From Bacteroidetes bacterium 37-13 (lineage in GTDB: Bacteria; Bacteroidota; Bacteroidia; Chitinophagales; LD1), in the NCBI GenBank assembly GCA_001897535.1, contig MKTC01000013.1:1-64000 (forward strand): a stretch of 64,000 nucleotides of DNA. The letters are read 5' to 3'. Positions 12,084 to 31,792 of the stretch are shown one piece after another. Position numbers and translations under genes: made by a program. The notes beneath the pieces are model-generated. The model saw nothing but the letters and a program-made list of their open reading frames with translations, ran no database searches and had not been told where the DNA came from. The number at the start of each line of letters is the position of its first letter. Position 1 is the stretch's first letter.

Positions 12084-12626
12084 ATGAAACCAGTTTTTGT
12101 CGTTGGTTTTATGGGCTCCGGCAAAACCGGATGGGGAAAGCGACTCGCCAATACACTAAAATTGGAGTTTGTAGATTTAGATTGGGAAATAGAAAAGAGA
12201 ATAAAGAAAAGCATTTCGGAATTGGTGCTTGAAGAAGGTATTGAAGAGTTTAGAATTATAGAACACGATGTATTGCTTTCGCTGAACTATGAAGATAAAT
12301 TAGTTGCCACAGGTGGAGGCACGCCTTGTTTTTACGATAACATGGAATACATAAATTCCTTAGGCACAACTGTTTTTTTTGATGTGAGTGAAGAAATTCT
12401 TTATAGCCGATTGCGAAGCCAAGAGCATCGCGACCGCCCGTTAATTGCAAGCCTTTCGGGCGAAGAATTACGCGATTTTATTGCAAAAAGTTTAGAGCAG
12501 CGAAGACCTTTTTACGAGCAAGCCAATTTAATTTTTAATCCGGTGAAAACCAGTATTGATGCTATGGCAAAAGAAATTATTGCTTACGATGGAAGTTTCA
12601 ATGCTTCAATGGTTAAGATTGAATAA
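12084..12626 (+). CDS. aroK: Shikimate kinase
   Basis: 180 residues, standard length. The P-loop GFMGSGKTGWGKRLA lies at residues 8-22, DLDWEIE carries the Asp that binds shikimate and Mg2+, the FRIIEHDVL segment carries the substrate Arg, and ATGGGTPC is the conserved Gly loop. RDRPLI in the lid region completes the set. It phosphorylates shikimate at the 3-OH with ATP in the aromatic amino acid pathway, in the cytoplasm. Its TAA stop lies inside the left 5-bp duplication of a small inverted-repeat element that follows. Confidence 0.95.
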   Translation: MKPVFVVGFMGSGKTGWGKRLANTLKLEFVDLDWEIEKRIKKSISELVLEEGIEEFRIIEHDVLLSLNYEDKLVATGGGTPCFYDNMEYINSLGTTVFFDVSEEILYSRLRSQEHRDRPLIASLSGEELRDFIAKSLEQRRPFYEQANLIFNPVKTSIDAMAKEIIAYDGSFNASMVKIE

Positions 12627-12786
12627 TCCCAGATTTTGCAGTAGATTCTTTGCTACGATAAAACACTACTTTATATCTGCTTCAACTGTTCAAAAAACAT
12701 AATTCATTATGCTTTTATCGCAGTTTTGCAGCTTATTTTGTATTATTTCATCTCGCTTAAATTTCTACTGCAAAATTTGGGATAAT
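12623..12786. mobile_element. MITE-like element A (154 bp) with 5-bp target duplications
   Basis: The element proper is 12628-12781. Its ends are 18-bp inverted repeats, CCCAGATTTTGCAGTAGA at the left and CCCAAATTTTGCAGTAGA (read inward) at the right, with one mismatch. ATAAT is duplicated directly outside both ends (12623-12627 and 12782-12786). The inside is AT-rich and has no reading frame. A second element with related ends and its own different 5-bp duplication lies at 30382-30562, which supports mobility. The left duplication contains the aroK stop codon. It sits between convergent genes, so it may also act as a terminator-like structure. Confidence 0.65.
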
Positions 12787-12811: not shown

Positions 12812-13687
12812 TTACTCTTTTCCTTCGTGCTTCCAGCGCTTGTGGCTCCAAAGCCAATCGTGAGGAGATTTTTTAATTTGTGTTTCTAACAAAGCCGCAA
12901 ATTGCGTGGTAATTTCTTCTGCCGAAAGTTTCTTTTGGCTATTGGTAATTGGCACTAATTCTATTTGATAAAAACCTCTTTCGGTTTGCACTACTTTCAC
13001 AAACAAAACTTCGCAATCGTTTGCTACGGCATAGCGCGCTGCACCCGAAAAAAATGGCAATCTACTATTTAAAAAATCGCACCAAACTGCGCCTTGTAAA
13101 CCTCTTGGCGATTGGTCGGCAACGTATAAGTGGATTGTTTTTTGTGCTTGTTTTTGTTTGTAATATTGGATAAAACCTTTGCCACGCATGCTCACTAATT
13201 TCATTCCAAATCGTTCGCGGTTGCGCTTTATCCAATTGTCCCAATGCTTATTGTTTGGTGGATTGTAGAGCGCCAGCATTTGTGGATAATCGGTAACAAG
13301 ACTTGCGGTTAAGCCAGCCCATTCCCATGAGCCGCAATGCCCCAAAAGCGCTACAATGCTTCGGTTTTCGCTGCTCCATTTTTCTACAATGCTTAAATCT
13401 TTTACGGTGCAGCGCTTTAGTATTTCTTGTTTTGAAATTCCAATTGCCATAATGCTTTCGGCAATTCTTTCACCCAATATTTTGTAGAATGAATTTGCAG
13501 TGGAGTTTACTTCTTCAGTAGAAAAATTTGGAAATGCTTTTTGAATATTTGAGCGTACTGTTCTTTTTCGATAACCGATAATTTTATTCAACAAAAAACC
13601 AATGCCATCTCCAATGCCGAATAATGTTTTTGCCGGCAGCTTTGCAATTAGCCAAAGCAAGGGAGAAAGCAAGTAGTAGCTGAACAT
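12812..13687 (-). CDS. LpxL/HtrB-family lysophospholipid acyltransferase
   Basis: 291 residues with one N-terminal membrane helix (YYLLSPLLWLIAKLP). The catalytic H-x4-D/E motif appears as GHCGSWEW near residue 116, and later family segments include VADQSPRG and the FFSGAARYA stretch. The C-terminus WLWSHKRWK is typical. This family transfers acyl chains to lipid A precursors or related lipids at the inner membrane. Which acceptor this one uses is not clear. It begins immediately after the PhoD-like gene ends (start and stop adjoining), so the two are probably one transcript. Confidence 0.88.
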   Translation of the reverse strand: MFSYYLLSPLLWLIAKLPAKTLFGIGDGIGFLLNKIIGYRKRTVRSNIQKAFPNFSTEEVNSTANSFYKILGERIAESIMAIGISKQEILKRCTVKDLSIVEKWSSENRSIVALLGHCGSWEWAGLTASLVTDYPQMLALYNPPNNKHWDNWIKRNRERFGMKLVSMRGKGFIQYYKQKQAQKTIHLYVADQSPRGLQGAVWCDFLNSRLPFFSGAARYAVANDCEVLFVKVVQTERGFYQIELVPITNSQKKLSAEEITTQFAALLETQIKKSPHDWLWSHKRWKHEGKE

Positions 13688-29925: not shown

Positions 29926-30297
29926 ATGAGTTTTGAAGCTCCTAGCGAAGGTCACTTACATTGGAACGAACAAGAGTATGCTGAAGGTAAAGCATCAGTT
30001 CTAAAAACGATCATTATTTTATCAGTAGTTACAGTTGTAGAAGTTGGTATTGCATTGGCTTACGACCTTTTAGTGCCGGATAATAAAGGTAAAATGTTTA
30101 TCGGTTTGTTTATGGCAGTGGCGAGTGTGGTAAAAGTTTGGTACATTATGGGTGTTTTTATGCACTTAGGTCACGAAACTAAGGCATTTAAAATGACAGT
30201 ATTGATGCCATTTTTGCTTCTTATTTGGGCTATTATAGCCTTTACGGTTGAAGGTGCAACTTGGAATCATTACAGACACTTGTTAAACGTATTCTGA
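29926..30297 (+). CDS. Cytochrome c oxidase subunit IV
   Basis: 123 residues with three membrane helices (about 26-44, 53-77 and 86-104). The central KMFIGLFMAVASVVKVWYI and FMHLGHETKAFKMTVLMP motifs identify the prokaryotic subunit IV (COX4_pro) family. It has a structural role at the edge of subunit I. It is the last gene of the respiratory operon, ending 27 bp before a strong terminator. Confidence 0.9.
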   Translation: MSFEAPSEGHLHWNEQEYAEGKASVLKTIIILSVVTVVEVGIALAYDLLVPDNKGKMFIGLFMAVASVVKVWYIMGVFMHLGHETKAFKMTVLMPFLLLIWAIIAFTVEGATWNHYRHLLNVF

Positions 30298-30324
30298 AGT
30301 ATAAAATTGATTTAAAGAATATAT

Positions 30325-30350
30325 AAAGGCTCATCATTTGATGAGCCTTT
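30325..30350 (+). terminator. Intrinsic terminator of the act/cta operon
   Basis: A perfect 12-bp inverted repeat, AAAGGCTCATCA and TGATGAGCCTTT with only TT between, followed by an AT-rich tract. It lies 27 bp after the stop of the subunit IV gene. The A-run before the stem and T-run at its end would also permit termination in the other direction. Confidence 0.85.
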
Positions 30351-30376
30351 ATTATTTAGGATTGAAAATCTTTTTT

Positions 30377-30567
30377 TTAAACCCAGATTACGCATTAGCT
30401 AATTTAATTTACTAAGTTTTCATTTCATTATAGCTGGAAACCCTTGCATATATTGATTTTTAGAAGATTATTTCAATAAAAATCTCTAATGCTACGCATT
30501 AGAAAAAATACGCTTCTTGTTGTTGATTTTCAGGCATTTGTAACTTTATTGCGTAATTTGGGTTAAA
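30377..30567. mobile_element. MITE-like element B (181 bp) with 5-bp target duplications
   Basis: The element proper is 30382-30562. It begins CCCAGATTACGCATTAG and ends, read inward, CCCAAATTACGCAATAA. TTAAA is duplicated on both sides (30377-30381 and 30563-30567). TACGCATTAG from the left end recurs inside at 30493-30502. Ends and polarity (G at the fifth base on the left, A on the right) are as in element A at 12628-12781, but the target duplication differs. No reading frame is present. The right duplication contains the stop codon of the flippase gene. Confidence 0.65.
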
Positions 30568-31792
30568 ACTTAAAATCGCTCCATTTAGGAATTAAATCAC
30601 TGAGTGAAAACTTCTCGATTTTAAGAAAGTAAACTAAAATCATTGCAGCGGCAGCAGCAAACGAAACTGTAGCAGCTAAACCCGCTCCGCTCATTTCATA
30701 ATGAGGTATCCAAATCCTGCATAAAAGCAGCGATACAGCAATTCCTGTGGAGTGAATTACACTCATTGCTTTATACTTTTCTTCAGCCATTAAATGGCTG
30801 CCTAAAACCAAAACAATTACATATAAACCAATGCCTGGAAATAGATATTTTACAGCGTATTTTACATACAAAAAGCCATCGCCAAAAACTAAAGCATAAA
30901 GTTCGATAGGAACTGAAAAAATAAGCAGCAAAGCTATAAATGAGCATAGTAACGAAAGCCGTAGCCAACGCAGTGTGTTTGCTGCAGATGGATTTTTTGC
31001 AGTGGCGGCAAAGTTAATGGTAGCAACGCTTCGCGGAAAAACCCACACGCTTTCTAAAATGGATATTCCTACGGAGTAAATTCCCAAGTTGTATAATCCA
31101 CCTTCGTTAAACCCAGCCAGCAAAAAGAAATATAGCCGCAAATGCAGCAGTTGTAATAACTCCGCTGCTTGAAAAGGAAAACCATTTGCCAACATGGCTT
31201 TGAATTTATTAAACGAAAAACTGAATGTTATCTTCTCGCTTTTCAAAAGCATCATCAAACTAATAAAATAAGAAGCAACGAATGAACTGTATAGCGCAAT
31301 TACAAACGCGTTGAATGTTTTATATTGGAAAAGATAAAGTAACACAAACAATACAGTCCATAGCACAAAAGGCTGCAAGAAAAATACAAAATTAAAAGCA
31401 CGAAAACGCGATTTACTAAGTAAGGCAGTTTGGTGAAAAGAAAAAAGGCTACTTAAAAATGTTAGAAAGAAAATATGCAAGCCAAAAGCAAAATTGCGGT
31501 GTAGAAAAGTACAAGCAATAAATGCAAAAATTAAGCAAGAAAAAAGACTCCAAATGTAGGTTGCGGTAAATACCGATGACTCTTCATTCCGTTTTAAAAA
31601 ATTGACAAGCGACAAGCCTCCAACAATATTTGAAGCAAAAACGCCAATAAAAATGGTGGTAATCCAAATGGTAGTTTCTCCTTTTAAAATTGGACCTAAA
31701 GAACGACTTACAGCAAGCACAACCAAAAAGTTGAATAGAAGCGAGAGCAGACGGGCTGCCGCATTCCACGATATAACTTTATGAAGTGCCAC
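30563..31792 (-). CDS. Polysaccharide flippase-like membrane protein (MATE/Wzx superfamily)
   Basis: 409 residues with about twelve membrane helices. The start (KVISWNAAARLLSLLFNFLVVLAVSRSLGP) is the typical Wzx/MurJ-like first helix with the conserved Arg-Ser-Leu-Gly-Pro. Others in the superfamily move undecaprenyl-linked glycans across the inner membrane. No glycosyltransferases adjoin, so the substrate cannot be guessed. It lies 6 bp downstream of the histidine kinase gene and is likely cotranscribed. Its stop lies within the target duplication of a small inverted-repeat element. Confidence 0.8.
   Translation of the reverse strand: MALHKVISWNAAARLLSLLFNFLVVLAVSRSLGPILKGETTIWITTIFIGVFASNIVGGLSLVNFLKRNEESSVFTATYIWSLFSCLIFAFIACTFLHRNFAFGLHIFFLTFLSSLFSFHQTALLSKSRFRAFNFVFFLQPFVLWTVLFVLLYLFQYKTFNAFVIALYSSFVASYFISLMMLLKSEKITFSFSFNKFKAMLANGFPFQAAELLQLLHLRLYFFLLAGFNEGGLYNLGIYSVGISILESVWVFPRSVATINFAATAKNPSAANTLRWLRLSLLCSFIALLLIFSVPIELYALVFGDGFLYVKYAVKYLFPGIGLYVIVLVLGSHLMAEEKYKAMSVIHSTGIAVSLLLCRIWIPHYEMSGAGLAATVSFAAAAAMILVYFLKIEKFSLSDLIPKWSDFKF

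Follow-up and report, generated by a model that had tools for sequence, protein, structure and literature searches.

A miniature transposon family with IS1380-type ends, and its placement at gene ends, in a Bacteroidota genome

The window analysed here, a stretch of 64,000 nucleotides from contig MKTC01000013.1 of Bacteroidetes bacterium 37-13, contains the shikimate kinase gene aroK, which scores above the NF010555 cut-off. Directly behind it lies a short non-coding element, element A, and beyond that a gene of the opposite strand that resembles lipid A acyltransferases of the LpxL/HtrB type, with scores below the curated cut-offs. An earlier note, made from the sequence alone, had described 18-bp inverted ends, flanking ATAAT and a body without a reading frame between convergent genes, with the aroK stop codon inside the duplicated target. 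All of this was found again in the window: the two ends agree at 17 of 18 positions, no ORF of at least 60 aa lies within the element, and the ORF positions confirm both the convergent setting and the place of the stop. With up to three mismatches allowed, the element A end has three matches in the window, where chance alone would give 0.11.

Table 1 Features at the two element sites of the window
Feature	Position	Strand	Remarks
aroK (shikimate kinase)	12084..12626	+	3' end within duplication
Left target duplication ATAAT	12623..12627		holds aroK stop TAA (12624-12626)
Element A, MITE	12628-12781		154 bp
Left terminal inverted repeat CCCAGATTTTGCAGTAGA	12628..12645	+	identical to one end of IS1380 elements L204/L264 and L269
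Element A interior	12646..12763	+	non-coding; conserved among 17 genome copies; partly decayed foldback
Right terminal inverted repeat CCCAAATTTTGCAGTAGA	12764..12781	-	
Right target duplication ATAAT	12782..12786		
Lipid A acyltransferase-like gene (LpxL/HtrB type)	12812..13687	-	convergent neighbour
Element B left target duplication TTAAA	30377..30381		
Element B	30382..30562	+	ends CCCAGATTACGCATTAGC / CCCAAATTACGCAATAAA; MITE family distinct from A
Element B right target duplication TTAAA	30563..30567		holds stop (30563-30565) of minus-strand ORF 30563-31792

The earlier note had also pointed to a related element further along the window, element B, with a different duplication. The duplication is indeed different, but the kinship to element A is limited to the terminal ~17 bp: the interior of element B has no match to family A and has one other copy in the genome (C16:240343, 93%). 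Two inverted 14-bp arms, perfectly matched around a 2-bp loop, form a terminator-like repeat at 30323-30352, in the gap that separates ORF 29926-30297 from element B; element B has this repeat on one side and the end of the convergent ORF 30563-31792 on the other. Elsewhere in the genome, at C40:41586-41751 (in L137), further IS1380-class ends form a third pair. It spans 166 bp, has TTGAA-like flanks (4 of 5 positions matching) and encloses a hairpin-forming interior unlike that of A or B.

We searched the whole genome (G000; 3.12 Mb in 43 contigs), as the earlier note had proposed, with the 18-bp ends. The end pattern gave 27 forward and 29 reverse matches, compared with two and two for a reversed control. 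BLAST with element A returned about 17 full-length copies with 82-100% identity and four further copies of which only the left part was present; some other solo ends proved to be remnants of the right part. We compared 20 full or paired elements, comprising 17 of family A, two of family B and the third pair. Sixteen of them are flanked by a perfect 5-bp duplication, and the duplicated sequences differ: TTAAA or TTTAA in 11 elements, ATAAT/ATTAT in three, and TTGAA and CTAAA in one each. That separate sites carry independent 5-bp duplications argues strongly for transposition. We inspected the solo end matches and their surroundings by eye for signs that they bound an autonomous element; several turned out to be truncated MITE ends, and genome-wide IS1380 searches came back empty.

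No credible copy of element A was found by BLAST in 40 relatives, and its exact interior pattern had no match in GTDB contigs or viral contigs. The aroK of a congener (G002), 83% identical, has no element 3' of the gene. The same sequence behind aroK in all relatives, which the earlier note had named as grounds against an insertion, is therefore not what we observed. The comparison it had proposed at this locus yielded an orthologue without the element, but a site with a single ATAAT was not seen, the neighbourhood being rearranged in G002. At seven other copies we located the G002 orthologue of the gene whose 3' end falls in the duplication, and none of these orthologues is followed by an element in the sequence examined. 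They stop at or near the same codon, and in four of the seven the two proteins can be aligned right up to their final residues (for example, KLPRKKHDNIPL and then the stop in both species). In these genes the targeted stop codons are therefore native gene ends and not products of insertion. At copy C6:37054, G002 has both flanking genes in the conserved order with no element between them.

The earlier note had tied element A to the IS1380 family by its ends and its A/T-rich duplication. Complete IS1380 elements, 1382-1398 bp long, were recovered from genomes of the same order and from Bacteroidota MAGs, and they back this link. One, L204/L264 (1398 bp), has the ends CCCAGATTTTGCAATAGG and CCCAGATTTTGCAGTAGA; another, L269 (1382 bp), has CCCATATTTTGCAGTAGA and CCCAGATTTTGCAGTAGA. 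The left end of element A is thus the same as one end of each (18 of 18 positions). A third element, L272, has CCCAAATTTTGCAGTTGA at both ends and a duplicated TTTAA. Duplications of 5 bp were also present in L266 and L271 (TTAAA) and L268 (TTTAA), and for L204 and L272 the transposase scores exceed the NCBIfam cut-off for IS1380 (NF033539). Likewise, ISEcp1, an IS1380 element, gives 5-bp A/T-rich duplications (PMC2887853). Beyond the ends, no sequence common to element A and the insertion sequences found was visible. Three IS1380 copies (L205:1394-2790, L206:1459-2851 and L269:1946-3327) are flanked by TTAAA (left) and TTTAA (right), that is, by a mirror pair and not a 5-bp direct repeat; these perhaps reflect a 4-bp TTAA duplication as in piggyBac.

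The search for an insertion sequence with matching ends thus succeeded in other genomes of the order and in MAGs, but not in this genome, where neither the PF13701 profile nor a full IS1380 transposase query (E<=10) detected an IS1380 transposase. Across the order, PF13701 matched at E<=0.001 in 51 of 396 genomes, 19 of them above the curated cut-off. Family A therefore looks orphaned. Active MITEs usually have their parental insertion sequence in the same genome; an orphaned family does not strictly require one. Element A itself is short, lacks a transposase, has inverted ends, is multicopy with target duplications and shares the end of an autonomous element, as a MITE does.

Miniature elements with the same class of ends were seen elsewhere. 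Another family of the same order (genome G047) contains a MITE family unrelated to A, with end pairs mostly 144-157 bp apart (L244-L258; for example C28:16003-16146 and C18:6654-6810). In genome G125, L171:1108-1517 is a 410-bp deletion derivative with IS1380-class ends, whose ORF resembles N-terminal and C-terminal fragments of an IS1380 transposase joined together (identity judged by eye); it is a possible intermediate toward a MITE. Together, the L171 element and the G047 MITEs suggest that IS1380-class ends repeatedly give rise to miniature elements.

We have high confidence that family A is a miniature IS1380-type transposon, inserted through its ~18-bp ends into a 5-bp A/T-rich target that was duplicated. 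In the mechanism we propose, an IS1380-family transposase acting in trans would have recognised the ends (CCCAGATTnnGCARTAGA) and inserted the element at a staggered 5-bp target such as TTAAA, TTTAA, ATAAT or similar, the target being duplicated in the process. The transposase would have come from an IS1380 element no longer detectable in this genome. Against this reading count the lack of a resident source of activity, the unlike sequence of element A and the insertion sequences inside their ends, and the mirror flanks of some IS1380 relatives. At aroK, the native stop lies within the target, so the reading frame and its stop were left intact.

This arrangement is not confined to aroK. In nine of the 19 full copies outside genes (flanks joined by script), the native stop of a gene lies wholly inside the 5-bp target, as TAA in seven cases and as TGA and TAG in one each. 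Non-coding sites with the same 5-mers at the same loci give an expectation of 7.3% (p 2.7e-6). When the two window copies that had suggested the test were left out, seven of 17 remained (p 1.1e-4); both p-values are post hoc, and the second is the fairer figure. The background is conservative because it was taken from the same loci, with the real target sites included. ORFs for these counts came from a simple longest-ORF script and not from a gene finder. Among the copies within 60 bp downstream of a stop, nine of 11 have it inside the target, against 17% expected. Four truncated copies likewise abut a stop. Truncated copies or solo ends that have kept an end beside a gene's stop were seen at C10:133870, C7:187227, C18:70854 and C40:188902.

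Two explanations of this placement go beyond simple insertion. The first is that transposition brought the element and that it was then kept for a role at gene ends, its hairpin behind the stop ending or insulating transcripts or stabilising mRNA. Besides the stops inside targets, the excess of convergent gene pairs (nine of 20 copies against 18.5% expected, p 0.006) would fit such a role, as would folding: element A as a whole forms a single hairpin, largely by pairing of its ends (z -4.94), and the sister copy at C41:31269 has a near full-length foldback with an interior z of -5.65. However, the interior of element A alone folds no better than shuffled sequence (z -0.68), Rfam holds no family that matches element A, some copies lie upstream of genes or between divergent genes, and the G047 MITEs show no such placement. 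We consider this role improbable.

The second is that the transposase of family A chose stop codons or features adjoining them, the duplication always rebuilding the stop. The excess over expectation, both overall and close to gene ends, would be accounted for, and stops lie even in the less common targets TTGAA (TGA) and CTAAA (TAG). However, the excess was not replicated in the G047 MITEs (two of 13 copies) or in IS1380 copies (none of 12); a DNA transposase has no obvious means of reading a stop codon, and survival bias after insertion could produce the same pattern. Such targeting is unlikely in our judgement, and the G047 MITEs and IS1380 copies likewise give no support to a stop preference as a general trait of this transposase class. 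Most likely, copies at stop codons are over-represented through tolerance or retention in a compact genome, and not through recognition of the stop by the transposase. That family A is a REP-like or chance palindromic intergenic repeat and no transposon at all, although it is palindromic, extragenic and repeated, is refuted by the exact 5-bp direct duplications of differing sequence at independent sites and by the element-free orthologous sites in the congener, and an end identical to those of insertion sequences also speaks against it; we give this next to no credence.

The ends of family A vary in an unusual way. Where the ends could be aligned (15 copies), their positions 9, 10 and 14 differ between copies at ~0.56 per site on either side, compared with 0.07 in the interior, or about 8 times as much. 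Within a copy, left and right nevertheless match at 38 of 45 such positions. Shuffling the right ends among copies gave 21, and none of 20,000 shuffles reached the observed agreement, a result that the relatedness of the copies inflates. Copy C19:107988 has the same one-base insertion at both ends, and the copies on C29 and C41 have nearly identical interiors (two differences) and different end types. Matched ends may arise from templated correction of the quasi-palindrome, or they may stem from mobilisation by successive IS1380 types that differ at those positions. In G047 MITE copies, the two ends usually differ at inner positions (ACGCGATAGG and CAGCATTAGA types), so left-right matching is not a general requirement. 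Selection for matched ends in an RNA of one strand is not supported, since most differences between left and right ends are transitions compatible with wobble pairing whichever strand is considered (judged by eye).

Taken furthest, the miniature IS1380-type transposon would slot seamlessly into the native stops of genes, each stop being restored by the 5-bp target, with copies either directed to gene ends or retained there, and with two ends that evolve fast and in concert through hairpin-templated correction or by tracking successive IS1380 specificities. We regard this fuller account as doubtful, yet both its parts deserve to be followed, the placement at stop codons as well as the concerted ends. 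Should further genomes show the same placement, this would illustrate how transposons of bacteria can spread at low cost in a compact genome, and would make targeting versus retention testable.

What emerges is an orphan MITE family of a Bacteroidota lineage tied to IS1380. In the part of the literature on IS1380 and MITEs and on Bacteroidetes MITEs that we covered, we recognised no description of an IS1380-derived MITE. Family A is a new MITE family; MITEs with the ends of known insertion sequences are already established, also in Bacteroidota. The IS1380 insertion sequences (ISEcp1; L204/L264, L266, L268, L269, L271 and L272) share with element A ends of the form CCCARATTTTGCAGTAGA, but at 1.38-1.40 kb they encode a transposase of ~440 aa, whereas element A is gene-less. 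MITECca01 of Cardinium, also a member of the Bacteroidota, is an IS982-derived MITE; like element A it is short and gene-less, bears the ends of a known insertion sequence and has multiplied in one lineage, mostly between genes, but it has IS982 ends, is ~240 bp long and still shares its genome with the parental element (PMC9769881). The BrickBuilt and MITEPgRS elements of Porphyromonas gingivalis are again Bacteroidota MITEs, with ends that resemble insertion sequences resident there; unlike element A, they have IS5-type ends, internal tandem repeats and irregular duplications (PMC4596501). The piggyBac superfamily resembles family A in ends that start with CCC and in TTAA-type targets, a likeness in general description, and differs in its 4-bp TTAA duplication and its eukaryotic hosts. 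IS1380 transposases serve as the outgroup for that superfamily (PMC10813416).
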